Shown piece by piece: positions 34,668 to 56,587 of a stretch of DNA of 64,000 bases. The notes below the pieces were generated by a model. That model had not been told where the DNA came from. It saw only the letters and a list, made by a program, of their open reading frames with translations, and did not search any database. The position numbers and the translations under genes were made by a program. Position 1 is the stretch's first letter. Each line of letters starts with the position of its first letter. Origin of the DNA: a virus; the IMG/VR virus record IMGVR_UViG_3300036846_000743, positions 162,074-226,073 of that record; one strand, given 5' to 3'.

Positions 34668-35258
34668 TCAACGGTTGTCACCGCTGCCCCGGAGCACACC
34701 GCGGTGTGCCCGGTCAGTCAGCTTGTCGTAGTTGGTCTGGGCCACACAGCCCAGCGAGACCCGCATTTCGGTGCAAAAAGCAGACACGTACCACAGGGCA
34801 TCGCCGGCTTCCTTGACCATCCGCTCCCGTTCGGGCGGCTCCACGACGCAGACCGGCGGGAACTCGACACGCTGAGTGTGCTCGACGGCCACGCGGAGAA
34901 CATCCAGGGCCTCGCCGGCCGCATCGATAGCGTCGTAGATCGCCTTCTTTCGCTCCGGAGTCAGTTCCCCGGCCGGGTCATTGCGGTATGCCTTCTTCAT
35001 CAGCTCCATGAGGGCACCGCACGTGCCAGCGACATCGAGAACGTCTATGGCCAGGGCATAATTGTGCGGCTTGATCTGCCGCACGGCCATTTGCATGATG
35101 GCCGTGGCCAGCTCGCCGGCCTCACCGACCAGGGAGATAGCCGGGTAGATGAGCTGGTTGTCGCCGCGCCCTGGATAAACGGCCAGCTCCGTGGTCTTGC
35201 CCTGATAGTCGTCCAGGGTCATCGTAGGTTCCGCGTTACGCGGCGTATCACTCATCAT
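34668..35258 (-). CDS. mazG: MazG-like nucleotide pyrophosphohydrolase
   Basis: 196 residues. Starts at 35258 or 35255 follow GGAG; ATG 35222 (MTLDDYQ, the usual family start) is also possible. GEAGELATAIMQM and the later KEAGDALWYVSAFCTEMR supply the EExxE/D metal ligands of all-alpha NTP pyrophosphatases, and the end RAHRGVLRGSGDNR is typical. About 60 residues are inserted between the two halves. It hydrolyses non-canonical or alarmone nucleotides. The palindrome at 35237 lies just inside or before it. Confidence 0.75.
   Translation of the reverse strand: MMSDTPRNAEPTMTLDDYQGKTTELAVYPGRGDNQLIYPAISLVGEAGELATAIMQMAVRQIKPHNYALAIDVLDVAGTCGALMELMKKAYRNDPAGELTPERKKAIYDAIDAAGEALDVLRVAVEHTQRVEFPPVCVVEPPERERMVKEAGDALWYVSAFCTEMRVSLGCVAQTNYDKLTDRAHRGVLRGSGDNR
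35237..35247. promoter_or_regulatory. Palindromic site TACGCGGCGTA (copy c)
   Basis: The only copy that may be within coding sequence: it is 8 codons into the mazG gene if ATG 35255 is used, or 15 bases upstream if ATG 35222 is the true start. The surrounding 18 bp match the copy at 1519 exactly. Confidence 0.35.
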
Positions 35259-35368
35259 CGTTCTCCGTGAATGGTCCACCGAGTATTCCTGGTAACTCTC
35301 CGTAGCTGAAAACCGAGCCAGTTAGTCCAGAGGCACCGTGACGAGACCGCAAAGCGGAATTACTCGTC

Positions 35369-35956
35369 TCAGCATGTTTCACTGGCTCGGTTGGCTTCTC
35401 GTGGCTCACGGCCCGCCGGGATGGTTCTGCATAGTATATGACACGAAAACGCGTCAGCGTTAAGTGGTTTGCCATCGGGCTTCCAGACGGGTGGCCCAGG
35501 CACCAGTCCCGGAAAAACTCGATCTCCTTCATACTCACCTTCGACGAGCGTCAAGTAGATCTTGTTGGCGAAAGGCAGAAAGATCTCGTAGACCTGGGCC
35601 CCGCCAATCACGACCGCGTCGGTCGCGCCGTTGCCGTTCCAGCCCCAAGCTGCCATATCCAGGGCCTCGAGCGGATTCCTGGCCCAGCGAGTCCCCTGTA
35701 CATCAACCCCGGCCGACGGCCAACTTTCATCCCACGGCCGCCTGCTCAGCACGACATTGACCCGCTTCTCGAGCGGCTGACCATTGCGCGTCAGGATCGA
35801 GTCGTAAGTCCGTCTACCCATGATGAGCGACTGGTGCAGCGTATGCTCGCGGAACCACTTGACGTCCTTGATATCGGGCCAGGGCAAACTGCCATCCCGA
35901 CCGATCACTCCTTGTTTGGTCATTGCCACGATGATCGCAAGATTGCGAATATGCAC
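35369..35956 (-). CDS. folA: Dihydrofolate reductase
   Basis: 195 residues from a GTG after AAGGAC. LAIIVAMTKQGVIGRDGSLP, the WP-D segment, IMGRRTYDSI and VVIGGAQVYEIFLPFANKIY are the standard substrate and NADPH sites. The enzyme regenerates tetrahydrofolate for the phage thymidylate synthase immediately upstream. The C-terminal 25 residues beyond the fold (TIPAGREPREANRASETC) are an extension with no known role. Confidence 0.9.
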   Translation of the reverse strand: MHIRNLAIIVAMTKQGVIGRDGSLPWPDIKDVKWFREHTLHQSLIMGRRTYDSILTRNGQPLEKRVNVVLSRRPWDESWPSAGVDVQGTRWARNPLEALDMAAWGWNGNGATDAVVIGGAQVYEIFLPFANKIYLTLVEGEYEGDRVFPGLVPGPPVWKPDGKPLNADAFSCHILCRTIPAGREPREANRASETC

Positions 35957-36028: not shown

Positions 36029-36925
36029 CTAAACGGCGACTTCGGCACGTAGCTTGCCCGGGTGCGGCGCGTAGCCGTCCAGGAAGAACCAGGCCGGATC
36101 GGCCTTCAGCAGCTGATCGGGGCTCAGGTAGGAGCACGCCTCGAAGAACTTGTCGCTGATCATCAGATTCGGCAACGGCCGCAGCTTGCGGGTGATCTGC
36201 TCCCGCACCTGGTCAAAATGGTTGTCGTAGAGGTGGCAGTCGGCGATGTTCGCCACCAAGTAGCGGGGCGTCAACCCGGCGAGCCGGCCGAAGATGTGGG
36301 CCAGCAGCGCGTACTGGACGATGTTAAAAGGCGCCCCCAGGAACATGTCGATGCTCCGCCAAAAACAAACGACATCAAGATGGCCGTTGGTCGGCAGCCA
36401 CTGGCTCATCGTATGGCAGGGCGCCAGGCCCATGTCCGGAACGACTGGTGGATCCCATGCCGTCAGCAAGATCCGCCGCCGGAAACGATGGCTCGGATCG
36501 GCAACCACGGCCTTGAGCTGCATCAAGATGTAAGTGATCTGGTCCCACATCTCGGCGAAGCCGTGCTCTGCCCGATATTCCCATCGCCTCCAGGCCCGAC
36601 CGTAGATCTTGGGCACATCTCCATCCGGCTGACTCCACTGGTCCCACAGCTTGCGGCGGATGAAGTTGCCGCTACCGTCCTGCCGGCCCAGCGTATTGAT
36701 ATTGGTCTCGCCACGCAGGAACCAGAACACTTCGTCAACGACCACGTCGAACGGTACCGGCTTGGTTGTGACGATCGGGAATCCATCCCGGAGATCGAAT
36801 CTGAGCTGCTGCCCCAGCAGCATTCGGCATGTAGCCTTGCGATCTTCACTCTTGATCACGGCGCCCGACTGAACGTCTTCACCCTCGTCGATGATCTTCC
36901 TGAGCAGATCAAGATACTGCTTCAT
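36029..36925 (-). CDS. thyA: Thymidylate synthase
   Basis: 298 residues, ATG after AGGAG. The nucleophile lies in LAPCHTMSQW (Cys170), the RSIDMFLGAPFNI block follows, and Asn201 in PFNI favours dUMP over dCMP. The H-x-Y block reads IADCHLYDNH rather than the common GDAH-x-Y-NH. It makes dTMP from dUMP with methylene-tetrahydrofolate. It sits beside DHFR and between two MazG proteins, giving a dTTP supply module. Confidence 0.9.
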   Translation of the reverse strand: MKQYLDLLRKIIDEGEDVQSGAVIKSEDRKATCRMLLGQQLRFDLRDGFPIVTTKPVPFDVVVDEVFWFLRGETNINTLGRQDGSGNFIRRKLWDQWSQPDGDVPKIYGRAWRRWEYRAEHGFAEMWDQITYILMQLKAVVADPSHRFRRRILLTAWDPPVVPDMGLAPCHTMSQWLPTNGHLDVVCFWRSIDMFLGAPFNIVQYALLAHIFGRLAGLTPRYLVANIADCHLYDNHFDQVREQITRKLRPLPNLMISDKFFEACSYLSPDQLLKADPAWFFLDGYAPHPGKLRAEVAV

Positions 36926-38888: not shown

Positions 38889-38935
38889 CCGGCCCCTCCC
38901 ATCGATACTCAGGACAGCCACAGGTGCACCAAAGG

Positions 38936-39753: not shown

Positions 39754-39809
39754 GTCACCGACTTTCTGTGTCTGACTGGTCGTGTAAAAGCCTCCTCAAT
39801 CAAGAGTTC

Positions 39810-39914: not shown

Positions 39915-39915
39915 C

Positions 39916-40665
39916 TTACTCCCGTTTGATTGCTCGCCTCGCCGCCAGCGCCAACGCTTCGAGATCGGGTCGCGTGCCCCAGCCTCCTGCCATGAGCAGC
40001 TCACCCATCTGCACCAGCTTTCGATCTGCATCGGGCACTGCCGTGCCATCAAGCCGCGGCGATGCGCGCCCGCACCAGTTCTCGTACTGCCGGCCAATAT
40101 GCAGCACGGGAGACGGTAGCGCCGTACGAGTTGTGAACCTCAGCGCGAAGTCCCAATCTGCGTAGGCCGCATTCATGTAGCCCCTCGGATACCAAGGCAG
40201 CGACCTGAGCGCCGCCGCCTCGGCGTGGAAAAGCTGGAAATATCCCGCGCAGGGATCTTCACGCGTCAGCTCCCAGCGTTCCCAGTCGCCGTCAAGATCC
40301 AGCACGCCCTCGGGGAGCTGCCGGCGTGCTGCGCCGTAGAGCACATCCCGGTCCAGTTCTCCCAGCTCGAACGTCGCTGGAAGCGCGATATCGGCATCCA
40401 CGATCAAGATCCAGCCTGAACGGCCTATGACATCAAAAGCCTCCTCGATCGCCATTCCCTTGTTGAAGATTGCTCCATACCGGGTAAACGCGTCGGTGCG
40501 AAACAGCTCAACACCTTTCATGCCCTGTACGAGCTGACATGTCCGCTCATCCGTGAGCGAAGTTACCACCAAGCACCTGCGTAAGTGCCGCATGTTCCGG
40601 GGTAACGTGAGTGCGAGGATATCGTCGTAGTCCACGCAGACCGTCAGGGCGGAAACGTCATCCAT
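39916..40665 (-). CDS. GT-A type glycosyltransferase
   Basis: 249 residues from ATG 40665. DDVSALTVCVDYDDILALTL starts the domain, GWILIVDADIALPATFELG carries the DAD metal site, and DPCAGYFQLFHAEAAALRSL followed by WDFALRF make up the acceptor side. Similar minimal enzymes are encoded by many phages. It is away from the other glycosyltransferases, next to a ParB-like gene. Substrate unknown. Confidence 0.65.
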   Translation of the reverse strand: MDDVSALTVCVDYDDILALTLPRNMRHLRRCLVVTSLTDERTCQLVQGMKGVELFRTDAFTRYGAIFNKGMAIEEAFDVIGRSGWILIVDADIALPATFELGELDRDVLYGAARRQLPEGVLDLDGDWERWELTREDPCAGYFQLFHAEAAALRSLPWYPRGYMNAAYADWDFALRFTTRTALPSPVLHIGRQYENWCGRASPRLDGTAVPDADRKLVQMGELLMAGGWGTRPDLEALALAARRAIKRE

Positions 40666-40690
40666 GAGCAGCCCCGGGCTAGATACAGGG

Positions 40691-40727
40691 ATAGGGGCGG
40701 TAAGGAACGCTCACCGCCCTAACCTAT
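40691..40727 (-). terminator. Imperfect hairpin between genes
   Basis: ATAGG plus GGCGGT on one side can pair with ACCGCC and CCTAT on the other, with a CTAA bulge. It follows the stop of the gene at 40727-41686 but lacks a T-tract on the minus strand, so termination is uncertain. Confidence 0.35.
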
Positions 40728-41686
40728 CAGCGTTTCATGACCTGTCCGTTCACCGCCTTGGGATGCTTGGCGAGTCGGACGCGCGGCTTGGGCTTGGCCA
40801 TGCCGGCCTTGCGGAGCTTGCCCTTGTGCATCCCGTTGCCGTTAGCCGAGACTTTGGCCGGCGCTTCTTCCTCGGTCTCCTCAGCATCCTCGGTCAGTTC
40901 GGGATTGCCCATGGCCGTGGACACCTCGGCGGCTATGGCCTCGGCTTCCTCGGCGTCGCGCTGGGCCTTGTTGGCCACGTCGCGGAGCTGGATAGCCGCC
41001 TCATGGGTGAGTTGTAGAAACTCCGGCGTATGCTTCTCGTCATCGCTGAGATTGGACACCAGGCCCTTGAACTGATCGATCCAGCCGTCTTCCTGGGCCA
41101 GCCACGCCCGGGAGCGCAGCTTCATAGCGCTGAGCGCCCCGACGTAGGTCTTGTACTTCGTCTTGCCGGGCTTGCGCCCGCCCTGCGACTTCTTGCCGCC
41201 CAGAATCCCGGTGATCACGTCTTGTAGCTCGCGATAACCCAGCCGGTCCCTGACGATCCGGGCCACCAGAGTGACCCGCTGCGCATCTGTGATGCCTTCG
41301 CGAAGCAGCTGCCGGAAATGCGCCCAGTTCAGCTCGTGACCACCAGCCGCTGCCGTCTTGAGCATCTCCTGGATCTGGGCCTGCTTGTAGAGCGCGGCCA
41401 GTCGTACGGAGAGTCGTAACGTCTGGGGGGCACGCTGGAGCCCGATCGAGTAAACGCGAATGGTCTCCTCGTCGTGCTCCTTGAAGCTCACGCCCAGGAT
41501 GTCGCCAACCTGCCAGTGATGCAGGACGTCGCCCTGGCTGTGAGTTCGCTGGAGGGTCTCGAGCTTCTCGTATCGCTTCCGTTCCGGCTCACCGCCCAGC
41601 TCCAGGACCATCGCGATGACCTGCTCGCGAGACGGTGTACTCGGACGTTTCTTGCCTTGTCGACTCTTCTGCGCTACTGCTGTCAT
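40727..41686 (-). CDS. Helical protein with ParB/DUF1016-like segment
   Basis: 319 residues, ATG overlapping the upstream stop. REQVIAMVLELGGEPERKRY, a middle LRLSVRLAALYKQAQIQEML and HELNWAHFRQLLREGITDAQ then RLGYRELQDVI resemble the helical domains of ParB/DUF1016-type proteins (HY-x-LL ... W-x-VRELE-x-x-I pattern). The C-terminus is basic (GKLRKAGMAKPKPRVRLAKH). It probably binds DNA. Beside the DUF932-like gene. Confidence 0.5.
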   Translation of the reverse strand: MTAVAQKSRQGKKRPSTPSREQVIAMVLELGGEPERKRYEKLETLQRTHSQGDVLHHWQVGDILGVSFKEHDEETIRVYSIGLQRAPQTLRLSVRLAALYKQAQIQEMLKTAAAGGHELNWAHFRQLLREGITDAQRVTLVARIVRDRLGYRELQDVITGILGGKKSQGGRKPGKTKYKTYVGALSAMKLRSRAWLAQEDGWIDQFKGLVSNLSDDEKHTPEFLQLTHEAAIQLRDVANKAQRDAEEAEAIAAEVSTAMGNPELTEDAEETEEEAPAKVSANGNGMHKGKLRKAGMAKPKPRVRLAKHPKAVNGQVMKR

Positions 41687-42828
41687 TTGTTCATCCTCTT
41701 GTCAGTAATTCGACCGAGCAGAATCTGAAAAGCCGCCTGTTCAATGGCTTCCATCACAGTCATGTCGAGGCCACGCGACTCGCGCGTGAGCGTACTGTAA
41801 AGGTCGAACCAGGTTCGGCCTTGTCGCAGCCGATCAGGCGCACGTGGCAGTTGCCTCGGCAGATCACTGCCATAACTCATCGTAGCCAGAATGATCCGAC
41901 GGGCCACACTCCGCGGTACATTCTGTCGGTGTAATAGTAGAGACAGGTCGTCAAGTCGCTCCTCTCGCTGTTGCTCCCCTTGCCCGAGATCGAGCGGCAT
42001 TTCTCGGAGGCGCTGCATTCGGCGCGCCAACAACGGACCATCTTGGTTGGTAGTCACGGCGCCAGCAAAGATCCTTATCACTTTCTTGACAAAGTCCTTG
42101 CCTGTATGAGCCAGGGGCCCGCGGCCAGGGAATGGGCCAAGAGATGTCGTCGCCGAGCGATGCCGATAGAGCAGCGTTGTCACACGGACACTGGCCTCGC
42201 CCACCTCCGAGTTAGAGACATGATACCCCCCGGAAAATGGTTCGCAGTCGGTTCCGGGACCGGTATCGACAACGAAGAGGGGCCGTACGTGGACGAACCG
42301 AAGCAAGAGTCGCCGGCCTTCCAGCACAGCCTCCAAGAACCGCACTCGTAATGGGCTCGATGCCATGGCGTCCCTTGCCATATCGTAGAGGGCGCGGTTC
42401 TCCAAGTAGTTATACTTCGGACCCAACATACCTTCAACCAGATGGCGCTGCACATCGCGGATCAGCCGCACCTTGCCTTCAAACCGTTCCTGGTAACGGA
42501 TCCTCAATGCTCTGTTGAAGACTTCGATGGCATCGGCGAATGAATAGTCACGCCGCGGCTGCACGGAGGTTCGCCTGATCCCCGACAGGTCAACCACGGC
42601 CTGATGCAGGCCGGGACAGGCCAGACCACAGACTTGCTTGAAGGCGGTCGACGTGTAGCGATAACCGCCGGGCAATTCGCCTTCATGGTTGAGCTGGAGC
42701 TGTGACAGCGCACCCACGTAGGGCGTCTGCGTGACCCGATCAGTCTCGGCCAGCTTGTCCACGAGCGCGGGCTCGGCGCCCTCGCCGTATGTCACCGCTT
42801 CGGGATACACGTAAAGGGCGTTCTTCAT
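41683..42828 (-). CDS. DUF932-like protein
   Basis: 381 residues from ATG 42828, with a weak ribosome site. GPKYNYLENRALYDMARDAM and then GGYHVSNSEVGEASVRVTTL followed by LYRHR match the DUF932 family found on plasmids and phages (YxxLDNxxL ... FSNSETGxAS-x-x). A C-terminal helical region follows (REERLDDLSLLLHRQNVPRS). The family's function is unknown; it often accompanies replication and recombination genes. Confidence 0.55.
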   Translation of the reverse strand: MKNALYVYPEAVTYGEGAEPALVDKLAETDRVTQTPYVGALSQLQLNHEGELPGGYRYTSTAFKQVCGLACPGLHQAVVDLSGIRRTSVQPRRDYSFADAIEVFNRALRIRYQERFEGKVRLIRDVQRHLVEGMLGPKYNYLENRALYDMARDAMASSPLRVRFLEAVLEGRRLLLRFVHVRPLFVVDTGPGTDCEPFSGGYHVSNSEVGEASVRVTTLLYRHRSATTSLGPFPGRGPLAHTGKDFVKKVIRIFAGAVTTNQDGPLLARRMQRLREMPLDLGQGEQQREERLDDLSLLLHRQNVPRSVARRIILATMSYGSDLPRQLPRAPDRLRQGRTWFDLYSTLTRESRGLDMTVMEAIEQAAFQILLGRITDKRMNK

Positions 42829-43384
42829 CGGGTCGTGTCCAGCCGATCGCCGCCAGCAGGCCGTCCAGGTCCTCGATCGTGTAGATCCATGGAGGTGCCT
42901 TTGGCCGCCCAACCGCGTAGATGAGCTTGGTTCTGCTCGCCTGCCCTGGCTCGCCAAACTCCCTGGGCAGCATGTGTAGGGTCATTCGCTCGCCGAAGCC
43001 GCGCCATCGGAACACCAAAACTGGTGGCTGTTCACCTGGGAATTCGTCGGCAGCTTCCAGGTACGCCCGATGTATGGGCGTGGCGGTGGGCCGCTTGAAG
43101 ACGTCTCCCACGGGCATGTCCACGAGTTTCAGCTTAGCCGCCACCAATCGCAACGGGAAGTCGGCGTACGTGCTAAAGGCGCGGAGACTAACCCCCCACT
43201 GGCCAGTTTCTTCCTGCACTCGCTGAGCGAGCATAGACACCCCGTTGAGCAAACCACCCATCTTGTAGACGTGAGCGATCACTGACTTCTCGTAAGCAGC
43301 CAGCGACATGCCGGCAGCCTGGGACGCACCGTCGCGCGCGGCGGCCTGCCACAGCGCATCTTCCTCGCTCTGATCGTAGCTCAT
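42740..43384 (-). CDS. Hypothetical protein
   Basis: 214 residues; ATG overlaps the recA-like stop (ATGA) with AGGA before it. Central FSTYADFPLRLVAAKLKLVD, PPVLVFRWRGFGERMTLHML and WIYTIEDLDGLLAAIGWTRP. It overlaps the start of the downstream gene by 89 bases, and its last 25 residues (Arg/Gly) look like read-through sequence. Probably co-transcribed with the recombinase. Confidence 0.5.
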   Translation of the reverse strand: MSYDQSEEDALWQAAARDGASQAAGMSLAAYEKSVIAHVYKMGGLLNGVSMLAQRVQEETGQWGVSLRAFSTYADFPLRLVAAKLKLVDMPVGDVFKRPTATPIHRAYLEAADEFPGEQPPVLVFRWRGFGERMTLHMLPREFGEPGQASRTKLIYAVGRPKAPPWIYTIEDLDGLLAAIGWTRPDEERPLRVSRSGDIRRGRRARARGQAGRD

Positions 43385-44916
43385 TCCTCATCATCCCTTG
43401 ATCGCGGCGCTGTCTTCTTGTGCAGATTCTCCGTGACGTCAGCAAACTCGCTCAGGTTAGCATCGTAGTCGGCATAGTAATTGGGCAGCTCGGCATCAGC
43501 CTTCGCGGAGGCTTTCTCGATCGTATCGTCGAGCCGCTCCCCAGGCCGGAACACCGGCCGGCGCGTGATGCCCAGAATCGGGAACAGCTCGCGGCAGACA
43601 CCGCGGTCATAGTCGAGCGCTCTCCCGAATTCATGACGGCGTACGGGCTTTTCTTTAGATATGCCCAGCCGGGTTGACCAGTAGCGGCCCTGGCTTGCGG
43701 CATTGATGTCGACGATGTCGTTGATCGCGTTCCAGGTCTTCCTCGAGTCCTTGTCGGCCTCGTACTGAAGCAGAGTCTCGAGAGTCGCCGTATGCCAGTC
43801 GAAGTAAACGTGCTGGCGCCAGTCGGCAGCTTCCTCGTTGTATCTCCAGTCCCAGACCATAGCCACGCGCACGGACTTGAGCCGCTCGCCGATCGAACTC
43901 TTGAGGATGTCGATCTGAAGCCATACCCCGGACTTCGATGCCTCCTTGTACTTGTTCCGCCGCGTCATCTGGATCTCGCACGACTCCATGAACTTGAGCG
44001 ACTTGCCGCCCGGCGAATGCGGGGTCTCGTTGCCGAACTCATCACGCTTGGGCTTCAGATGGTTGGTGCCAGCGACGATGATCGAGGTGCCCCGGAGCTT
44101 CTCTGCCCAGCTCCGACCGTATTCGGATAGCAGATTGGCTTCGAGCGGGTGGCTGCGCCCGGGCGCACCCATCTTGTCCATCTTGGTGAGCTTCTCCTCA
44201 GCCATGGCGGACGTGAATGCGTCGACCCCGAAAATGTAAGGACTTTTCCAGCCGATGCCCTGCGAGCCGCCGTAGCCCTCGTTGTACCTGCTGACTTCGC
44301 CGATCTCCCTGTGCAATCGCTTCATCCATGCTTCCAGCGAGTTACACGGCTCGATCAGGCTGCGAACATCGAGCCAGGTCCGGTTGTACTCCCAGATCCC
44401 CTCGCGTAGCTCGGCGATGTCCTTAGCCTCGGTCTCGAAGATCATCGCGTAGCCGGAGTGGATCAAGACCCAGCGCATCATCTCGGCCAGGAAGCTGGAC
44501 TTGGACGAGCCCTCCTCGCCGATGATCTGGTAGAGCCGGCCCAACGGCAACACGCTGGACTGGAATAGGTGCATGAGTGAAAGACTGGGCAGCGGTAAGC
44601 CGACCACCAGCTTGCGGGCCTCGCCGCACGTGTGCACGTCCTTGCGGTCATTGTCCTTCTTCTGGATGTTACGCTGCGCCGTCCACGCAGCATCCTGAGC
44701 CATGTCGTGGCCCAGCTTCTTCACGCTCTCGTGATAGACCCGTAACGCAGCCCGGGCCGGATCGCCAATCCTCACCTTGCTCGTAGATTGTTTGCCTGTG
44801 ACCTGACCGTTCTTCGCTGCCTTGAGTTTAGCCTTGGCCTTGGCTTCCGCGGTGAACTCACCCTGGACCGTCGTGGCAGCTCTGATGGCCCCCTTTCGGG
44901 CTATCTTCTTGGCCAT
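43381..44916 (-). CDS. RecA/UvsX-like recombinase
   Basis: 511 residues, ATG after GGAGAG. A basic Ala/Lys-rich N-terminal extension (about 1-50) leads to the ATPase core. GRLYQIIGEEGSSKSSFLAE (Walker A at 133-140) and a Walker B around YIFGVDAFTSAM, then GTSIIVAGTNHLKPK, fit the RecA/RadA fold of phage recombinases. The C-terminus is acidic and helical (KADAELPNYYADYDANLSEF). It forms strand-exchange filaments in replication and repair. The 61-base gap upstream contains a hairpin (44936-44963). Confidence 0.75.
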   Translation of the reverse strand: MAKKIARKGAIRAATTVQGEFTAEAKAKAKLKAAKNGQVTGKQSTSKVRIGDPARAALRVYHESVKKLGHDMAQDAAWTAQRNIQKKDNDRKDVHTCGEARKLVVGLPLPSLSLMHLFQSSVLPLGRLYQIIGEEGSSKSSFLAEMMRWVLIHSGYAMIFETEAKDIAELREGIWEYNRTWLDVRSLIEPCNSLEAWMKRLHREIGEVSRYNEGYGGSQGIGWKSPYIFGVDAFTSAMAEEKLTKMDKMGAPGRSHPLEANLLSEYGRSWAEKLRGTSIIVAGTNHLKPKRDEFGNETPHSPGGKSLKFMESCEIQMTRRNKYKEASKSGVWLQIDILKSSIGERLKSVRVAMVWDWRYNEEAADWRQHVYFDWHTATLETLLQYEADKDSRKTWNAINDIVDINAASQGRYWSTRLGISKEKPVRRHEFGRALDYDRGVCRELFPILGITRRPVFRPGERLDDTIEKASAKADAELPNYYADYDANLSEFADVTENLHKKTAPRSRDDEE

Positions 44917-46874: not shown

Positions 46875-47627
46875 TCAATCCGTGTCGATCGATCGAACGC
46901 GTTGTGCTTCTGCCAGCGTATAGGTGTCTTCCGGCGGAGGAATACCTTCCTCGATCGGCGTATCTTCCAGGCCCTGCTGCGGGGAGCTTTCCTGGATGCC
47001 ATCCTTCATGAAAAGGGCCATGATGCCAATGACTACGTCATTGGCACCAGTGTCGCGGCATGTAACCACGTACTCACCGTCATCGAGCTTGCCTGAGAGC
47101 CGCGTGCTGTAAAAAAAGCCCGATGGCTTGCCCGGCGTAGCTGTGGGCATACCCGCACGCGGGGCGACCGGCAAGACCGAAAACTTCTTGCTGGCAAAGT
47201 CGTAGAAAAAGTTGTCTTTAACCCTCCGGATCGAGTAGATCAGGACGGTCTTCCTGTAAAACCAGAACACGATGTCCACGCCGCGCCTCCCGAGTGGGCC
47301 TTCCCAGGGCGGCTGTGAAAAGGCTTTGACGCCCGGATCGGACTGGAAGCCCATGACCTGAAGCGCCGTCTTCACGTCCTGCTTCGTAATGCCACCGCAT
47401 ACCGTTTGATCGTGCGTACCGGGCAAAGGAAAGTCCACGCCAACAGTATGTGACGGGACTTCCCCGAAAACTTCAGTCTTCCATTGGTGCACCGACATGT
47501 GGTCCTTGATCTGGCCCACGTACGGCGCAATCGCGTCCACGAACGAGCGGTCGCCGGTCAGCTCCGCAAGGAGCTGACCGGGCTTGGGCACGATGATGCG
47601 CTTCTCATCACTTTCCGAGGTACTCAT
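46875..47627 (-). CDS. Hypothetical protein ending RVRSIDTD
   Basis: 250 residues, ATG with TTGGGG; it overlaps the polymerase gene end by 20 bases. Beta-rich middle (GVDIVFWFYRKTVLIYSIRR) and a GEYVVTCRDTGANDVVIGIM segment, then a helical acidic region. The C-terminus EAQRVRSIDTD resembles the shared tail but has an extra Asp and Ser in place of Val/Ile, so it is a weak member. Function unknown. Confidence 0.6.
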   Translation of the reverse strand: MSTSESDEKRIIVPKPGQLLAELTGDRSFVDAIAPYVGQIKDHMSVHQWKTEVFGEVPSHTVGVDFPLPGTHDQTVCGGITKQDVKTALQVMGFQSDPGVKAFSQPPWEGPLGRRGVDIVFWFYRKTVLIYSIRRVKDNFFYDFASKKFSVLPVAPRAGMPTATPGKPSGFFYSTRLSGKLDDGEYVVTCRDTGANDVVIGIMALFMKDGIQESSPQQGLEDTPIEEGIPPPEDTYTLAEAQRVRSIDTD

Positions 47628-50600
47628 CCGGGATCCCCAAGGACCGACCGCGCTCCGGATCGATCGCCTGTCCCCAATTCAGGAAAACCGAGCAATCGAC
47701 CTTGAAGTGATAGGGCTTCTCCAAGCAACGCCCGCCGCGCCCGGCAGCCTCCATCTTCTTCTTGTCGTCAAAGCGGATGCCATCAAGCGTTCGTGGCATG
47801 ATCTCCACGTCATCAGACAGCGCCAAGACGACCGCTTCGCGAACCTCCTCGATATGCGGAATTTTCACCTCCAGCATAACAGCGTCATGGATCTGGAGCA
47901 CGGTCCGGAACTTGTTGCGGAACCCGTTTATCCGGAGCTGGCGCAGGTTATACATGCCCAGCAAGATAGCGTCTGCCACCAGGTTCTGGATCGGATAGTT
48001 CTTGGCCGATCGGCCCTGGTCAGCCTGGGCTGACTTATCGTCAACCCTGCCGAACCGCCGCATCCGACCGAATGCTCCGACCAGATATGGCGTCCTGCTG
48101 CCAGGCCGCGCTTCGCATTCGGCCAGGAACGAACTGGCGGCCGGATAACGCTTGTAGTAGTTATCGATCAGCCGCTGACACTCCTGTACTGAAACATCAG
48201 CACCCTCTTCGCGGCACTGTCGCGACAGTGCCTCGGCACTACGCCCGTAAGGAACGCCGAACCTCACGTTCTTCGCAGCCACGCGCAGCCCAGGCTTGCC
48301 CAGGGCCTTGAGCGCCTTCTTGTTCGGGTCGCAGCTCAGCTTAAACGCCTCGACGGCTGTCGAAGAATGAAGATCCAGGAAGTCCGGATCATCCTCCGGA
48401 AGCATGGCCCGATTGACGTCCTCGATCATCTTCTCATCCCCGGACTCCCAGGCCAGGGCGGCAATCTCGGCCGCGATGATGTCGAACTCCATGAGCACCG
48501 TGGGCACATCGTCCCATTCACCGGCCGTCACGATCGACCGGATCGGGTTCTTGTAGAGAGGCGCACCCAGGATCTTGGTGTAGTCACCAATCACCTCGCC
48601 GTCTTCCACGTGTCCGAGGATGCGCGCGTAGTCATCCTCGCGGCGCTTGGCCAGGTTCTGGAGATTGGGGCCCGAACTCGAGCAACGACCCGTCTCAACG
48701 GGGTAGAACCGGCTGCGCACCCGGCTGTCCCGCGTATTGACGTAGCTCAGGAAGCCGCCGTCGAACTCGTCCGCCTCGTCGAAGACCACACTGCCGTTGG
48801 CTTCGGCACCCATGGCCTCGCCGATCTTGGGTGGACGAAGTACCGACTGGAGCACCTGGCGGATGTAACGGATGTCCCGCAGCTTCTTGACCCGATCATC
48901 CGTGTGGGCAAAGATCCCCAGAACTTCCTTGTCCACGGCCGGCACGAGCAATTGCTTATCCCTCGGGTTAAGGGTACCCCACGATCTCGACGGCTTACCC
49001 GTAGTCTTGATCGGCACCTTGCCGAGTTTCATCTCGGGATCGGGCATTTGCGGCCGGTTCTTGCCGGTTTTCTTGTCAATGACACGACTGAACTCCTCGC
49101 CGAAAAGCCACGCGCGCACCTGTGCCGGCGAGTTGGGATTGAATGATGGCCAGTTCAATTCCTCGCGGAGCGACGTGGTCAGCCGTTCCTTGACCAGCTC
49201 GAAGACCTTGATCAGCTCCTTGCCGCGATCGACATCGACTGTCACGCCGGTCTCTTCCATCTCCAGGAAGGTGAGCCCGGCCAGCATCGTTCGCCAGTAT
49301 GGTTCCCGTGAACTCTTGTGCCAGACATCCTGATCCAGGAATCCGTCACCATCGTTCAGGGTCCGGGCGAAGTTGAACCTCCAGAACAACCGAAGCGTCG
49401 CGTCGGCGTCATAGAGTGCGTAGGGCACAAGCACGTTATCGGGGATATCACCATATCCGCCCAGGTCCCGGAGTTTGATCCCCATTTCCTTGGCAATCCG
49501 GACCTTGGCTTCCTCCACATCGACGCTCCAGCGCGGGATCGTCGTCCAGCGCATGGCCAGCTGCTCCAGATCGAAGCTCTCCGTAGCCTCGAAGACTGCA
49601 TGCGTCATGTAGCCGGTGTCGAAGCCGCCCGTGTAACGGGTCATCTCCCATGGTTCGTGCGGCTCCACGAGCTGGTTACGGTCAACAAGGTCTCGCGATA
49701 CCAGTACTGGTGCCCGTTTCTCGGCCTCGGCATTCGCATCCTCCTCGATCTGGAACTTGGCAATCTTCTTGCGGTATGCAACACCATTGATCCGCTTCGG
49801 CAGTCGTTCCCTCCTCTGCTCCTCGGTCTCGCCTTTCGGCCCTGGTTCCTGCGGCGACGGGACCGTCCAGAGCGGAGCGAAGTCAATCCCCAGAAACTCG
49901 CGGATCCAGGGAATGTCCGCTTTGAAGAAGTGACCGCCGTGGCGGGTCTTGATGTGGATCTCGCCGTTGCTATGTCGGCCATCGATCAGGCGCCGAAGCT
50001 CGCGAGCGATCAACTCGGTGGTAGGACGCCCGAGGCCACCTCCTTGATCCGACAGGCCAACACAGGTGGCCTTCATGGGAGCCCTCCTGTAGTTGCCCCC
50101 GACAGAGAACTGGATGGTTCGCAGGTACGACCCAGGATCGCCAGGATGGCGGCCATGCCATTCCGCGTCCCAGGCGATCGGCAGGTCACCGTCGATCTCG
50201 GAGTCCCATTCACGACTGGCCTTCTCAAGGATATTGTCTATCACCCTGGCCAGATGCTTCGGCGTGTAGCAGACCGAATGATCCCTCGTGCTCTCGATAT
50301 CCTGCGGCCGCTCGCCCTTGATCAGCTCGGTGAGCTGCCTGAGTCCTGATAGCAGATCGGGATACGCCTCCTGCATGCGGAAGATGTAAGCCGGGTGCGG
50401 CATGCCTATGATCTGGACCGTCTGCTCGCCGTAAGAGCCCAGATCATCGAAAGCTGCGTGGGTCTCGGCATCGAACGGCGGGAAGTTGTACTTCATTTCG
50501 ACGACCCGGCCAGTCATGTTGCCGACGGTGAAACCCTTACCCAGGACCGCCCTGATTGCCTCGGTGCCGAGACAGGCGATGAACTTGGGTCGGACCAGGA

Positions 50601-51258
50601 GGATCTCCTGCCAGAGCAGCGGCGCGCAGTTCTTGAGCCACGCCTGCTGCATGGTCCCCGACGTGGGGTCCAGCCTGTTGAACTTCACGGTGTTGGTGAC
50701 ATACCAGTTGCTCCGGGCCTCCAGCGAGACTCCAAGCTCGCGAAGCGCACGGTGCAGTGGTTCGGACGACTGGCCGATAAAATTCTGCTCAAAGGTAAGC
50801 TCCTCAGCACCTGGATGCTTACCGATGATCATGACGTCGGAGTGATAACGCGGGCCGGCAGCTTTCCTGTATTCGACCCATTCGTAGTCCTGGCTGTTTA
50901 CCGAGCTGTTCCTCGAGTTGAAGAACGGCGGCAATGACCAGCGCCCACCCCGCAGGAATGTGGCGTTGACGAACTGGCCCTTGAAGCTGACCTGAAGTTG
51001 CCACTTGCGCTTGTAGAGCGCATTGCGGTAGAGATGTTCCAGGCCGATCATGGCCGGATCGTCGCGCGCCATCTTGGCCGAGACCTTGGATTCGGTCAGC
51101 TGGAGTACGGTCCTGGCAAAGTCAGGACCAGCCGCCGGAATGAGCGGATGGTCCATTGGCACCAGATGCTTCCATGCGTAGCGAGCCCAGCGTTGCTCGC
51201 GGGACAAATTCTTGACGTCGTCGAAAGTGGTGGAATCATCGTCTTTGGTCGTGGTCAT
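47608..51258 (-). CDS. Uracil-DNA glycosylase / DNA polymerase A fusion
   Basis: 1216 residues from ATG 51258 (GGGAG). Residues about 140-310 are a family-4-type UDG: VMIIGKHPGAEELTF and IIGMPHPAYIFR. Residues about 355-640 form a 3'-5' exonuclease (AWDAEWHG; YALYDADATLRLF). The polymerase follows: TGRCSSSGPNLQNLAKR, motif A EFDIIAAEIAALA, motif B RVAAKNVRFGVPYG, motif C QIHDAVMLEV. In motif C the usual Glu after Asp is Ala. Phage SPO1 polymerase is a known UDG-PolA fusion. It replicates the genome. Confidence 0.9.
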   Translation of the reverse strand: MTTTKDDDSTTFDDVKNLSREQRWARYAWKHLVPMDHPLIPAAGPDFARTVLQLTESKVSAKMARDDPAMIGLEHLYRNALYKRKWQLQVSFKGQFVNATFLRGGRWSLPPFFNSRNSSVNSQDYEWVEYRKAAGPRYHSDVMIIGKHPGAEELTFEQNFIGQSSEPLHRALRELGVSLEARSNWYVTNTVKFNRLDPTSGTMQQAWLKNCAPLLWQEILLVRPKFIACLGTEAIRAVLGKGFTVGNMTGRVVEMKYNFPPFDAETHAAFDDLGSYGEQTVQIIGMPHPAYIFRMQEAYPDLLSGLRQLTELIKGERPQDIESTRDHSVCYTPKHLARVIDNILEKASREWDSEIDGDLPIAWDAEWHGRHPGDPGSYLRTIQFSVGGNYRRAPMKATCVGLSDQGGGLGRPTTELIARELRRLIDGRHSNGEIHIKTRHGGHFFKADIPWIREFLGIDFAPLWTVPSPQEPGPKGETEEQRRERLPKRINGVAYRKKIAKFQIEEDANAEAEKRAPVLVSRDLVDRNQLVEPHEPWEMTRYTGGFDTGYMTHAVFEATESFDLEQLAMRWTTIPRWSVDVEEAKVRIAKEMGIKLRDLGGYGDIPDNVLVPYALYDADATLRLFWRFNFARTLNDGDGFLDQDVWHKSSREPYWRTMLAGLTFLEMEETGVTVDVDRGKELIKVFELVKERLTTSLREELNWPSFNPNSPAQVRAWLFGEEFSRVIDKKTGKNRPQMPDPEMKLGKVPIKTTGKPSRSWGTLNPRDKQLLVPAVDKEVLGIFAHTDDRVKKLRDIRYIRQVLQSVLRPPKIGEAMGAEANGSVVFDEADEFDGGFLSYVNTRDSRVRSRFYPVETGRCSSSGPNLQNLAKRREDDYARILGHVEDGEVIGDYTKILGAPLYKNPIRSIVTAGEWDDVPTVLMEFDIIAAEIAALAWESGDEKMIEDVNRAMLPEDDPDFLDLHSSTAVEAFKLSCDPNKKALKALGKPGLRVAAKNVRFGVPYGRSAEALSRQCREEGADVSVQECQRLIDNYYKRYPAASSFLAECEARPGSRTPYLVGAFGRMRRFGRVDDKSAQADQGRSAKNYPIQNLVADAILLGMYNLRQLRINGFRNKFRTVLQIHDAVMLEVKIPHIEEVREAVVLALSDDVEIMPRTLDGIRFDDKKKMEAAGRGGRCLEKPYHFKVDCSVFLNWGQAIDPERGRSLGIPDEYLGK

Positions 51259-51310: not shown

Positions 51311-52438
51311 TCAGGCAAAGCTGGCGATGTCGATCCCCTTCGCATCGCCAGCGGCGTAGATCAGGTTCCAGATCGTTTCATAGTCGAAATTCCCAGGGTC
51401 TTTCCCGTGGGGTAAGTGGACTCGCACGGCTGCCCCACCGGTCTTGGCATAACTGTTCCCCAGGCTGGTGAAAGCCAGAGCCAGCCGCCGCTGTTCTTTG
51501 TAGTCTTGATCGGCGTCAGGATCAAGCATGAGCACCAGGCAACGGGGCTCGCTGCTGTAAGCTGTCAGGCTCGCAAGCCTGAACATCTGGTGCGCCGTGA
51601 TTGACTTGCCCAGCAGCGCCACCGCAGCGTCGCCGACGGTCCAGACGCCGGTCACGCCTTCGACCACAACGATGATCCGGCCCTGGGATGCTCGATCCCA
51701 ATTGTAGAGGATCCTGCGCTTCTTCATGCCCGGCAGGTTGTAATACTTCCGGACCCCACAGGCGCTCCAGTTCAGTTCGCCGATGTAACGGGCCTGCCAG
51801 CCGACCAGCTGGTGTTCCATCTCGATGGGGACCACGAGCCGGCCCTGGACCTGGGAAAACTCGAATGCCTTGCGGCAATAACACAGGCCATACTTGCGGC
51901 CCAGCTTGGCCGCGTCGTAGCCGCGATCCTCGATGTATCGGACCGCCTGGTGATCGAACGACAACTCATCCAGACGAATAACCCGGCCTGGCATCTCGAC
52001 CGCGACGAGCGGCCCTTCATCGCTCCGGTTACCCGGCCGTGTTGCCAGCAGAAGGTTCCGCTCCCCGGCGCTCATCTCGGCACGGAACAACCGGATCTCA
52101 AGATCCTGTCGGTTCTCGACAGCCCGGCGATCACGACCTGACAGGCAACCCTCGTTGTAGCAGTTGACCAGCCAGTTGATCGTGCGACCATCATCGTCCA
52201 GCGAGCCGTAGCAATAATGGAACCAGAGCCGCTGACGGCTATCGCCGCAGTAAGGGCAGTTGACCCTGTAATACTCGCCCGACTGGATGATGTCCCACTC
52301 CATTCGCTTTTCGACGGAGTTCCAGTGTCGGCTGGCAATGACGACCTCCTCGCCTTCGTTGGCGATGGTGATCTCGCCGAACGCGCGGCGAAGCAATTCG
52401 TAAAGGCCAGGACAAAGCGGGCCGGTGAACTGCATCAT
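51311..52438 (-). CDS. DNA primase-like protein (zinc finger plus TOPRIM)
   Basis: 375 residues, tandem ATG after GGGAGGG. The N-terminal CPYCGDSRQRLWFHYC region with two more Cys (NCYNEGCLSG) is a primase zinc-binding motif. The TOPRIM part contains GRIIVVVEGVTGVWTVGDAA (catalytic Glu) and LVLMLDPDADQDYKE (DPDAD). It makes RNA primers for the phage polymerase. It lies between the polymerase and the helicase. Confidence 0.8.
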   Translation of the reverse strand: MMQFTGPLCPGLYELLRRAFGEITIANEGEEVVIASRHWNSVEKRMEWDIIQSGEYYRVNCPYCGDSRQRLWFHYCYGSLDDDGRTINWLVNCYNEGCLSGRDRRAVENRQDLEIRLFRAEMSAGERNLLLATRPGNRSDEGPLVAVEMPGRVIRLDELSFDHQAVRYIEDRGYDAAKLGRKYGLCYCRKAFEFSQVQGRLVVPIEMEHQLVGWQARYIGELNWSACGVRKYYNLPGMKKRRILYNWDRASQGRIIVVVEGVTGVWTVGDAAVALLGKSITAHQMFRLASLTAYSSEPRCLVLMLDPDADQDYKEQRRLALAFTSLGNSYAKTGGAAVRVHLPHGKDPGNFDYETIWNLIYAAGDAKGIDIASFA

Positions 52439-52441
52439 GAC

Positions 52442-52675
52442 CTACCCTCCCAGCGCCCGAAACGTGAACACGTTGCCGAGCTTGGTCCAGATCTTGATCA
52501 CGCCGTCTTTCCAACTCACCCGCTTACGTGTCAACACGACAGACTCAGCTCCGGTGGGGTGATACCACTCTCTGCCGTGAACAAGATTCAGCTTCCCGGT
52601 TGTACCAACAAGATCGCCGAATTCCTCCTGGTTGCCCGTGACCGAGATCAGCTTCACACTGACGAGTTCCATCAT
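52442..52675 (-). CDS. Small beta-rich protein
   Basis: 77 residues, ATGATG after AAGGGG and overlapping the helicase stop. Strand pattern MELVSVKLISVTGNQEEFGD and DGVIKIWTKLGNVFTFRALG. It sits between helicase and primase; a small clamp-type or regulatory partner is possible but unproven. Confidence 0.6.
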   Translation of the reverse strand: MMELVSVKLISVTGNQEEFGDLVGTTGKLNLVHGREWYHPTGAESVVLTRKRVSWKDGVIKIWTKLGNVFTFRALGG

Positions 52676-54354
52676 TCATCCCCTTCTGTGCCCGCGTATG
52701 GCTTCCACGGGGCGATCGGTGGGGCAGTCATGCCCGCCGGGACCGGCTCACCGTGGATCTCATTGTAGAGATGCGACTGGACAATCCGCTTGGTAACAAT
52801 CTTGTAATTGTTGCTCGCGTCCATCGTGCGACCGTAGCCGCCATCAAGCGATACCAGAGTGTCCATTCCCTGGTTCTCGCTGCGCCGCCCCTTGGTGTAG
52901 AAGACGCGGCAGCACCCGGTCGAACCATCCTTGACGCCAAAGACGAGGCAGTTGACCAGGTTCTCGGCGAAGTCGCGGGCCTCACCCGCATGAGCATGGT
53001 TCAGCGGGGCCGTCGGCGAGCGCGTATTGGCCTCGCCAGAAAGCTGCTGAAGCAACCACACGGTACAGCCGAATCGCTCGGCCAGCTCCATCTTGGCCAC
53101 CATCGGCGTCTCGTTGATCAGATGCCGCAGGGCTCGGTCCGGGTCCTTGTCCTGGGCCTTCAGGTACCGACGGCACATGATCTTGGTGTAGTCGACAATG
53201 ATCGTATCGATCGCCCAGCCGTACTGCTGTTGCTGCCGCTCGATGTACGAGGCCAGCTCGGGAACCCAGCCTACGCCGCGGCCATCCTTGCGCATGTCCA
53301 TCATCTGCAAATTCTGGCCGATCTGCGCATCGGCCTTGAGCAACCGCTCGTACTCGCCGTCCATCAACTCGGGATCAGCAATCTGCTGCATCTCATACCA
53401 CGTCAGCTCGTAGGGGCGCAGGTGGCCCTTGCGGCTGAGCTGATCCAGCGACTTGAGGCCCTCCAGCGTCGCTTTCCTGATGTGCGCAGCGCACGACATG
53501 ATGCGCGGCCGAATATCGCGATCGATGTCTTCCTCGTAAGACGCGAAGATGATCTGCCGGAGCCGTTCGTGGCCGGCATCGCCGTGGACGTGCCAGGCCA
53601 TACACAGCTTGGCTCGCTCCACGGCAGCTTGTACCGCGAACATGGTTTTGCCGCCGCCGAATGGCCCCAGGATCCCGTTCACGTCACCAGGAGCTTGACC
53701 ACCCATCAGGTTGTCTGCCCACTGGATCCCGATCGGTGTCGTATCGATCGTGGTCGGCACCCAGCCCGCAGGAAGCATGGTCTGAAATGGATTGCTGCCG
53801 ATCGCCTGGACGGCCCGGTCCTTGAGAGTGATCTTGTTCAGATAAGCGCCGAAGCCCATTACATTGCGGCCGCTAGCACTGTCGATCACGCGGCGGACCT
53901 TGTCCTGGATCTGCCGCTCCTGGAGGAACTTCCTCAAGAGCGTGAGGCCATACGGCACGCTCAAGTCATTCTCATTGACTCCCATGTACGCATGATAGAG
54001 AAGCCCGTTATACGGGTCGGCATCGTCGGGTCGACCGACAATATCGTTGATCAGGAACTGCGACTGCCGCAGAATCGCATCATCATCCAGAATGCGCTTG
54101 ACCTCGGTGTGGACCGCCACGTAAGGGATCCCACCGATCGTGTATAGCTTGGAGTCCCCCAGCTGGAAGAAGCCGTCGATCAAGATCCGATAATGCCGCT
54201 CAGAATTCGCATCCCAGTCGTCAATCTCGACGTGCTGACGAGCCTCGGCGTAGACTGCGGGCACCCGGATGATATGGATGAGCAACTCCTCCAACTCGGC
54301 CGGAGTCATGCGTGGCTCATCCTGTACCCCGCCACTCCCGAATTTCCCTGCCAT
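52672..54354 (-). CDS. DnaB-like replicative helicase
   Basis: 560 residues, ATG after GAGGTG. The N-terminal helical domain (about 1-200) is followed by the SF4/RecA-like motor: Walker A GPFGGGKT (230-237), Walker B TIIVDYTKIM near residue 395, and a downstream FGCTVWLLQQLSGEANTRSP with the Q/R finger. It unwinds the duplex ahead of the polymerase. Confidence 0.85.
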   Translation of the reverse strand: MAGKFGSGGVQDEPRMTPAELEELLIHIIRVPAVYAEARQHVEIDDWDANSERHYRILIDGFFQLGDSKLYTIGGIPYVAVHTEVKRILDDDAILRQSQFLINDIVGRPDDADPYNGLLYHAYMGVNENDLSVPYGLTLLRKFLQERQIQDKVRRVIDSASGRNVMGFGAYLNKITLKDRAVQAIGSNPFQTMLPAGWVPTTIDTTPIGIQWADNLMGGQAPGDVNGILGPFGGGKTMFAVQAAVERAKLCMAWHVHGDAGHERLRQIIFASYEEDIDRDIRPRIMSCAAHIRKATLEGLKSLDQLSRKGHLRPYELTWYEMQQIADPELMDGEYERLLKADAQIGQNLQMMDMRKDGRGVGWVPELASYIERQQQQYGWAIDTIIVDYTKIMCRRYLKAQDKDPDRALRHLINETPMVAKMELAERFGCTVWLLQQLSGEANTRSPTAPLNHAHAGEARDFAENLVNCLVFGVKDGSTGCCRVFYTKGRRSENQGMDTLVSLDGGYGRTMDASNNYKIVTKRIVQSHLYNEIHGEPVPAGMTAPPIAPWKPYAGTEGDE

Positions 54355-55042: not shown

Positions 55043-56587
55043 TCAAGTGAAAAACATCCGTGCAACGCCTGAACTGGAGAATGTGCCAGCTGGCTCGATC
55101 TGCACCCAGGCGTGCTTCTTGTAAACACGGCGTCGTGCCATGGCCTGCTTGTAAAACTGCTCGTCAAACTCGTCATTGAAGTCATAGACGACACCGTATT
55201 CCTTTCCGGACTCATCGTGAATACGCGAGACGCGAGACGGTCCCTGAGTCGCATCGATGGGCGAGGAACCCCCGCCAGCCCAGATCAGGGCCGCCAGGGC
55301 GTCGAATGACACACCCAAACGCCAGACGCCGGTAGCAATGGCGCCCCGGATCTTGCCTGCTTCGAAGTCCTCGCGGAGTTGCTTGCGAACAGCAACCGTC
55401 AATGGCGTGTAGTTAACCGGCAGCAACCCGTACTTGCGGTAGTAGCCCTCATCGGCCTCGTCGATGTTGCCGTAGCAGAGCGCGAAGTCAGGCATGAGCC
55501 TGGCCAGGTGCAGCAAATGTTCAATCTTATCGACCAGCACTAAGATCTGGTCGCCTTCTTCGTAGTGCTTTTGAGCGATCTTAGCGATATGCGCATTCCG
55601 GACCTTATTCGTCCAGATGCCATGCCGTTTCCTCGCTGTATCGCCCTGTAGCCCCTTCGTCGGGTTGCCACCCATTTCCACCCGCTGCCAGCGTACCTCG
55701 ATCGGTACGACCAGCTTGAGGCCAACAGCCTCGGGGTAGGTCAGCTTAAACAGAGTCCCGCCGAAGACCGCTTCCATGCGGGCATCTGCGTTATCGGATC
55801 GTCCCTCGACGGTGGCCGTGAAGCCAAAGCGAATGGCCTGGGGGGTCGTCGTGACGATATCGGCAACGTAGGTCTCGGCGAGCAGCTCGTGAACCTCGTC
55901 GCCAAGGAACAGATCCGCAGTCCCAGCGTAATTCCCCACCGACGCAGCCGTAGCCACAGTCACGCGGGCTTGCTTGGCCCGCCCGGCTCCGCGCTGGCCG
56001 ATCGACGGCTGCGGCAGATAGCGGAGCAGCACGCGGATTGTCTTCTGCACGTTGTCAGTCGACTTCACGCAGATCAGGATCTGGGCCGTAGGTAGAAGCA
56101 TTGCCAGGGCGGCGAATAGCTCAGTCTTGCCGAAACCAGCGGCAGCATCGATCACGCCGCCGCGACGAGCCTTGTAGGCCGCCTCGATGGTCCGCAGGGC
56201 TTCTTCCTGGCGGGGCCGGAACTGGAATGACCCCAGGTTGTCCCAGTGCCACTCCAGCTGCTGAGGAAACTGGGGGGAGTCATCAACATAGCAGATCTGA
56301 TAACCCTGGCTGGCGAGTATCTTCTGTACCCGGTCATAATAACCAGCCGGGAAGTTAAGGCAGCCGTAGTCATCGATGCTGAACAGCTTGCGCTGCTCGG
56401 TCTTGATCCGCTGACCGGAAGACTTACCGAACGCTTCACGGCCGTACAGCCGCGTCACGTGCCGGTACTGCATGTAGTAGGTCAGCTCGGAATAGACGTC
56501 GATCGGCAGTGGCTCGTCGAGCCGGCTAGCCAGGTAGAGCGCATTACCGTTTCGGACCAGTAACGCTTTGAGTGGCGAAGTGATCAT
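55043..56587 (-). CDS. SF2 helicase (UvsW/XPB-like)
   Basis: 514 residues, ATG after AAGGGG. FRPRQEEALRTI is the Q-like motif, DAAAGFGKTELF (148-155) Walker A, LFLGDEVHELL the DEVH box, IRFGFTATVEGR motif III, and GVWRLGVSFDALAALIWAGG then QGPSRVSRIHD motifs V-VI. Such helicases remodel branched DNA during phage recombination-dependent replication. Confidence 0.8.
   Translation of the reverse strand: MITSPLKALLVRNGNALYLASRLDEPLPIDVYSELTYYMQYRHVTRLYGREAFGKSSGQRIKTEQRKLFSIDDYGCLNFPAGYYDRVQKILASQGYQICYVDDSPQFPQQLEWHWDNLGSFQFRPRQEEALRTIEAAYKARRGGVIDAAAGFGKTELFAALAMLLPTAQILICVKSTDNVQKTIRVLLRYLPQPSIGQRGAGRAKQARVTVATAASVGNYAGTADLFLGDEVHELLAETYVADIVTTTPQAIRFGFTATVEGRSDNADARMEAVFGGTLFKLTYPEAVGLKLVVPIEVRWQRVEMGGNPTKGLQGDTARKRHGIWTNKVRNAHIAKIAQKHYEEGDQILVLVDKIEHLLHLARLMPDFALCYGNIDEADEGYYRKYGLLPVNYTPLTVAVRKQLREDFEAGKIRGAIATGVWRLGVSFDALAALIWAGGGSSPIDATQGPSRVSRIHDESGKEYGVVYDFNDEFDEQFYKQAMARRRVYKKHAWVQIEPAGTFSSSGVARMFFT

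Follow-up and report, generated by a model that had tools for sequence, protein, structure and literature searches.

The fusion of a uracil-DNA glycosylase (UDG) domain to a family-A DNA polymerase (PolA) is in itself already known, in many phages. Phage SPO1 carries a UDG domain, a 3'-5' exonuclease and a PolA on one chain, the fused polymerase of Thermus phage phiLo has a solved structure (PDB 9qhs), and the available part of the genome paper on Pseudomonas jumbo phage PaBG reports that all 11 phages of the PaBG group carry a UDG domain (PMC7412058). No test of the function of this domain was found in the UDG-PolA literature that we searched. Here we describe a polymerase with the SPO1-type layout, its exonuclease being recognized by residues, encoded at 47608-51258 on the minus strand of a 64,000-nucleotide stretch of viral DNA (positions 162,074 to 226,073 of IMG/VR record IMGVR_UViG_3300036846_000743; hereafter the window). 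We favor, with modest confidence, the view that its UDG domain, probably a poor catalyst, has been retained to recognize bases as part of a functional replicative polymerase. The interest of the locus lies in a UDG domain with an altered motif that is seemingly kept by selection on such an enzyme.

The fused polymerase and its UDG centre

The open reading frame (ORF) comprises 1216 codons and a stop, with no internal stop in the translation of the window. An alternative ATG upstream, at 51345, would give a product of 1245 aa, and 51258 is preferred because the ORF of the closest homologue, found on a 161 kb IMG/VR contig (L001) and 67% identical over its whole length, begins in register with it. 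The UDG-exonuclease-PolA fusion proposed in the initial annotation was confirmed, as Pfam recognizes UDG (PF03167, E 9.9e-20, with 74.7 bits on the domain against a cut-off of 24.3) and DNA_pol_A (PF00476, E 1.4e-34, 120.1 bits against 34.3), both far beyond chance, and the exonuclease is indicated by residues D364-x-E366, D448, Y613 and D617 in the alignment to phage polymerases. The exonuclease domain had no Pfam match at E 0.01, PF01612 included; PF01612 scored above its cut-off in seven of nine comparison proteins. In the polymerase domain, motif A (D926/E931), motif B (R992/K996/Y1004), Q1091 and motif C (H1124-D1125-A1126) could be aligned, and both catalytic aspartates (D926, D1125) and the O-helix residues K996/Y1004 that characterize family A are present. 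The full-length model superposes on Klenow (VIA Z 26.3, root-mean-square deviation 4.4, 521 aligned residues), its confidence being low (mean pLDDT 54), and we relied on it solely to place motif C in its hairpin and to check the fold. The first 134 residues, also modelled with low confidence, have no counterpart in the aligned UDG-PolAs of phiLo, MaInes, Exiguobacterium phage vB_EalM-132 (Eal132), MelJY34 and ctfzr933, and matched no Pfam family; their only sequence match in the PDB stood at E 0.5, with none below that value.

The UDG domain resembles family-4 UDGs and UdgX in its modelled fold (Table 1). In a model of residues 1-345, ten-residue blocks from 141 to 310 had pLDDT values of 75-94, except 191-210 (53-54) and 261-270 (61). 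The glycosylase residues were rightly chosen as the test in the initial annotation, and the outcome is divided. In the profile alignment, E47, F54, N80 and H155 of Thermus thermophilus UDGa (TthUDGa) are matched by E153, F160, N189 and H288, and the R294 equivalent is kept in both the window and L001, but E41 and G42 of motif 1 are replaced by K147 and H148 and most of the Fe-S ligands are gone. No cysteine lies upstream of motif 1, Phe193 occupies the VKC position and only Cys211 is kept. The missing cysteine positions belong to the four [4Fe-4S] ligands of family-4 UDGs, so that a normal [4Fe-4S] site could presumably not form with three of the four absent. In the study on TthUDGa that assigns roles to these residues, the ratios from Table 1 put activity 888-fold lower for E41Q and 89-fold lower for G42D, whereas N80A and H155S lost about 44-fold and about 2500-fold, respectively (PMC5387724).

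The hallmarks of UdgX are absent as well: motif 1 reads GKHPG instead of GEQPG, and the KRRIH loop with the nucleophilic histidine is gapped in the alignment. In UdgX, according to the part of the report available, Glu52 adjoins and activates the nucleophile His109, which bonds C1' (PMC10359453). The domain also falls below the cut-off of TIGR00758 (59.4 against 125.3 bits), a shortfall that counts for little because phiLo (74.8 bits) and MaInes (85.1 bits), in which all three key residues are intact, fall short too. Judged by these comparisons, the domain is neither a standard family-4 UDG nor a UdgX, although it may still act like one, weakly.

These observations bear on the alternative that the domain is an active glycosylase that removes uracil at the fork, from the template or from the product, and that Lys147-His148 is a motif 1 whose change has been compensated. 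The conservation of H288, N189, E153, F160 and R294 or their equivalents in the window and L001, the purifying selection described below and the rescue of TthUDGa by a correlated change of the motif-1 doublet, as given in the accessible text (PMC5387724), all speak for it. The lack of most Fe-S ligands and, with little weight, the TIGR00758 score speak against it, and we regard an active glycosylase of this kind as unlikely, though worth keeping in mind.

Relatives and selection on the UDG domain

Close relatives of the fusion are scarce. Scans of IMG/VR with the window or L001 proteins returned the L001 contig alone, plus a distant partial locus (L025); the MaInes protein as IMG/VR query gave no close relative, and a search for the nearest cultured phage through the helicase gave no match. 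Identity to the fused polymerases of phiLo, MaInes, Eal132, MelJY34 and ctfzr933 is 19-26%. The palm-domain tree pairs the window firmly with L001, its deeper forks being weak and its branches long.

Lysine occupies motif 1 in the window and L001, and glutamate does so in 24 of the 28 rows of our comparison panel. The back-translated peptide GKHPGAEE, sought in that exact form and not as peptide variants, occurred in viral_contigs only on the L001 contig, and the 26 stretches that matched the pattern in genome_contigs included none that was UDG-like by reading frame and flanks. Of the 28 rows, 14 have lost one or more of the residues equivalent to E41, N80 and H155 (12 of 23 without the near-copies L029, L032, L034, L040 and L049), and the losses fall in groups around SPO1/Eal132, ctfzr933, MelJY34 and the window. 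This fraction is only indicative, as the panel was filtered for known HDS/HDA strings and for ORFs longer than 700 aa; this filter, which might conceal HDE, removed 10 of the 30 IMG/VR loci (L042, L044-L048 and L050-L053). The phage part of the panel was drawn from eight records chosen among 21 matching the UDG domain, and L007, L008 and L010, with UDG ORFs of 216-232 aa and no polymerase in the same ORF, were excluded.

The ratio of nonsynonymous to synonymous substitutions (dN/dS, Nei-Gojobori) between the window and L001 is 0.248 for the UDG domain (dS 0.80, 176 codons), 0.205 for the palm (241 codons) and 0.258 for the 106 exonuclease codons compared, a part of that domain. In this single pair of sequences, the constraint on the altered UDG domain is thus almost as strong as that on the polymerase. 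Amino acid identity in the same pair falls from 73% (polymerase) through 69% (UDG domain) and 62% (exonuclease) to 54% (N-terminal extension). The UDG domain was less constrained than the palm in every usable pair except L033/L034, in which the palm is almost identical; several other pairs were uninformative, with silent sites saturated or sequences near-identical. These patterns suggest that full glycosylase activity is often not what the fused UDG domain is retained for.

We consider it improbable that the domain is an unselected relic of the fusion. The changes in motif 1 and in most of the Fe-S ligands, the decay of other centres among relatives and the sub-threshold N-terminal UDG match of phage LP65, as if a domain were fading, would be in line with such a relic. 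Nevertheless, besides the window/L001 ratio, which is close to that of the palm, the pair L038/L041, whose pocket is more decayed and lacks both N and H, still shows 0.177 for the UDG domain against 0.116 for the palm, and the UDG domain of the window is more similar to that of L001 than the exonuclease is.

Motif C and the question of modified DNA

A polymerase motif C reading QIHDAV with the essential aspartate retained had been described initially and was found as such, at the turn of the modelled hairpin. The further suggestion that HDA signals unusual chemistry was not supported. The cellular-type HDE of E. coli Pol I, also present in T7 gp5, is absent from the window protein, and this trait does not define phage members of family A. 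Motif C was readable in 36 UDG-PolA loci (28 IMG/VR loci plus the window, L001, phiLo, MaInes, Eal132, MelJY34, ctfzr933 and SPO1), with 28 HDS, 6 HDA and 2 HDE, so that glutamate is lacking in 34. HDS occurs in SPO1, Eal132, MelJY34 and ctfzr933, and HDA in phiLo and MaInes. Read without the filter, the 30 IMG/VR loci, in several of which UDG and palm sit in separate ORFs, gave 24 HDS, 2 HDA, 2 HDE (L042, L046) and 2 without a palm match (L050, L052). L042 and L046, unlike the rest of their group, combine HDE with a palm in a separate ORF, and L025, in which fusion is not shown, has HDQ.

Unfused polymerases of the T5 type carry HDS in four of four cases, namely AKFV33 (T5-like), Klebsiella Roth39, Vibrio D17 and Achelous. 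These came from five unfused phage polymerases chosen out of 942 records, the fifth, from LP65 and also HDS, being left out of the count for its sub-threshold UDG match. The N-terminus of this Lactobacillus phage protein (orf59, L062) scores 12.5 bits for UDG against the cut-off of 24.3 and perhaps represents a fading UDG domain.

In the part of the report available on the polymerase of phage Tt72, S616A retains 76% of the activity and D615A 4% (PMC9324360), and phage G20c Pol I is given with Glu684 at the motif C position in the accessible text (PMC9629493). Given the 34 of 36 loci and the Tt72 S616A mutant, a motif C that lacks glutamate works and is common among phages; HDA as an anomaly is rejected, and by analogy HDA is probably a working motif C in the window polymerase. 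Motif C HDA or HDS is thus no longer an oddity among UDG-PolA polymerases.

A further explanation, taking up the question raised in the initial annotation, is that the phage DNA carries an unusual base, such as 5-hydroxymethyluracil (hmU) or uracil, and that the fusion and HDA reflect its handling. SPO1 DNA is hmU-DNA, and SPO1 shares the fusion and has a gp29 annotated as dUMP hydroxymethylase. Moreover, 7-deazaguanine genes lie near the UDG-PolA gene of a Brevundimonas phage, and the title of PDB 9qhs, the part of the entry on which we draw, describes the phiLo UDG-PolA 'with modified template'. Despite these precedents we give this explanation little credence, as HDA is not rare among UDG-PolAs. 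ThyA, dihydrofolate reductase and MazG, to which the initial annotation had drawn attention, are indeed present, all on the minus strand, but the link to modified DNA drawn from them was not supported. The window ThyA can be aligned end to end with E. coli ThyA, keeps the dUMP-binding G-x-PFN stretch and scores 203.5 bits for TIGR03284 against a cut-off of 108.35, passing one of the eight NCBIfam thymidylate synthase models listed. SPO1 gp29 (58.2 bits, none of eight listed models passed) and the ThyA-like protein of Eal132 (52.4 bits, none of seven) do not, so the window protein differs from the dUMP hydroxymethylase-type ThyA of hmU-DNA phages.

In addition, no match to PF00692 (dUTPase, sought by this family alone), PF00383 ((dCMP) deaminase) or QueC was found in the virus record of the window or in the L001 genome, with positive controls in 11, 12 and 12 of 14 cases, respectively; both records may be fragments, which limits these absences accordingly. 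A search for the hmU-kinase HMUDK_hel, positive in no control, was not counted. With a ThyA that passes TIGR03284 and these families not found, nothing favors a modified base; there is no sign of modified phage DNA, and a modified base is neither favored nor excluded.

The window also encodes an N6/N4 DNA methyltransferase (30235-31110, minus strand; PF01555, E 9e-49), from which ordinary methylated bases might arise. In the ThyA of the L001 phage (L096:388-2025), profile positions 103 and 107 are separated by an in-frame insertion of about 190 aa, which the window ThyA lacks and which holds WIGMLHRCYD...YGAKGVHVDPRW...FSNF, a stretch that resembles phage AP2/HNH-type domains.

The least probable explanation makes Lys147 an amine nucleophile that attacks C1' of a deoxyuridine held by N189/H288 and forms a Schiff base, as a glycosylase/apurinic-apyrimidinic (AP) lyase or covalent trap: Lys147 might reach C1', because its UdgX equivalent Glu52 sits beside His109, and Lys-His is common to both phages, but these are only two sequences and we know of no UDG-superfamily lyase of such a type. 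If it were true, the polymerase would carry its own uracil-directed glycosylase/AP-lyase, or a trap halting at uracil.

A proposed role, the gene neighbourhood and known systems

We return to the non-cutting recognition module as the explanation that we favor. With the metal-binding aspartates D926 and D1125 and with E931 present, the polymerase would polymerize normally, and the motif C glutamate may be dispensable, as in Tt72 Pol. The UDG domain would be a relative of family 4 that has kept the uracil pocket (E153/F160/N189/H288) with a Lys-His motif 1 and most Fe-S ligands gone. Its most likely role is to hold template DNA, and perhaps to recognize uracil, close to the polymerase active site with little or no excision of bases, and the enzyme might in this way tether to, or sense, template bases without cutting. 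Fold, residues and selection were computed here, and reduced excision, tethering and sensing are what we infer from them; the target recognized by the UDG domain is the least certain part of the proposed mechanism.

Several points weigh against this proposal. The E41Q-G42D double change regains most of the activity of TthUDGa, in the available text (PMC5387724), so a compensating Lys-His pair could work, those mutants having other residues than Lys-His. The presence of H288, N189, E153 and F160 makes residual, even useful, glycosylase activity quite possible. The equivalent of TthUDGa N89 is ambiguous because the loop is shortened, and it falls in a loop modelled with low confidence (191-210). 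Lys-His is borne by two sequences only, and HDE does occur in other phage PolAs (T7, G20c, L042, L046). The altered motif, the apparent selection and the residue losses in the panel make it possible to test directly whether a repair enzyme has been recruited to a replicative polymerase as a sensor or clamp that does not cut.

The polymerase ORF is the sole PF00476 match in the 226,073-base virus record and is surrounded by replication genes (Table 1), a gene for an SbcC-like protein being also among its neighbors; for these reasons it is best seen as the phage replicative polymerase, and its sequence makes a replicative family-A DNA polymerase with proofreading most likely. Elsewhere on the minus strand of the window, the interval from ThyA to the UvsX-like gene holds five consecutive long ORFs of 249-424 aa (38010-42957) that had no Pfam or PHROGs match at E 0.01, and the ORF at 20097-21029 matched phrog_6247, DNA topoisomerase, strongly and over its full length (E 4.4e-111), the nine other ORFs scanned alongside it giving weak matches or none.

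Table 1. Coordinates of the fused polymerase, its domains and residues, and other genes of the window.
Feature	Coordinates	Strand	Details
UDG-fold / 3'-5' exonuclease / family-A DNA polymerase	47608..51258	-	1216 aa
N-terminal extension, residues 1-134	50857..51258	-	common to window ORF and L001
UDG-fold domain, residues 135-315	50314..50856	-	PF03167 E 1e-20; VIA Z 16.6-18.3 to family-4 UDGs and UdgX
UDG motif 1, residues 146-150, GKHPG	50809..50823	-	family 4 has GE[A/G]PG
Asn189	50692..50694	-	equivalent of uracil-binding N80 of TthUDGa, by alignment
His288	50395..50397	-	equivalent of catalytic H155 of TthUDGa, motif 2 PHPAYIFR, by alignment
3'-5' exonuclease domain, residues 356-635, with insertions	49354..50193	-	aligned residues, without Pfam match
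Polymerase domain (thumb, palm, fingers), residues 636-1216	47608..49353	-	PF00476 and aligned motifs
Motif C triplet His1124-Asp1125-Ala1126	47881..47889	-	at turn between two strands of model
MazG-like pyrophosphohydrolase	34668..35279	-	
Dihydrofolate reductase	35369..35956	-	
Thymidylate synthase ThyA	36029..36925	-	298 aa
UvsX-like recombinase (phrog_97)	43381..44916	-	PHROGs match
DNA primase (phrog_47)	51311..52438	-	PHROGs match
DnaB-like helicase (phrog_19)	52672..54354	-	PHROGs match
DNA helicase (phrog_16)	55043..56587	-	PHROGs match

Among described polymerases without the motif C glutamate, T5-like PolA (HDS) and the PolA of Tt72, with Ser616 in the part of the report available (PMC9324360), are family-A phage enzymes like the window protein, from which T5-like PolA differs in having no UDG match. 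The gp205 of PaBG ('Lupandier' group) shares the UDG/exonuclease/PolA arrangement, as far as the accessible text goes (PMC7412058), but its UDG match falls below the Pfam cut-off (20.8 against 24.3 bits) and has no recognizable N and H residues in the partial ORF aligned. The usual catalytic residues thus seem to be absent from the UDG domain of PaBG (L099), which the authors of its genome paper describe as capable of removing uracil (PMC7412058).

The comparison with SPO1 made in the initial annotation proved apt, since SPO1 gp31 has the same layout. Both SPO1 gp31 and the Eal132 PolA show the same domain order, HDS at motif C and a UDG centre that is also altered, and they differ from the window protein in lacking the 134-aa N-terminal extension and in having serine at the N80 equivalent. 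Their ThyA-like neighbors fail the thymidylate synthase model, unlike the window ThyA, and the SPO1 polymerase gene has an intron, whereas the window ORF has none. The phiLo PolA is likewise a UDG-PolA fusion with HDA at motif C, but its UDG motif 1 is GEAPG, its N-terminal cysteine pair and VKC-position cysteine are kept, and its identity to the window protein is 19%.

UdgX of Mycobacterium smegmatis, the best single-sequence PDB match, has the same fold (Z 16.6-17.6), from which the window domain departs in its gapped R-loop and in a motif A that is not GEQPG. The family-4 UDGs, represented by T. thermophilus UDGa and S. tokodaii UDG, combine the same fold (Z 17.4-18.3) with the same uracil-pocket residues, and the window domain differs from them in the change of motif 1 from Glu-Gly to Lys-His, in the loss of most Fe-S ligands and in its fusion to a polymerase.

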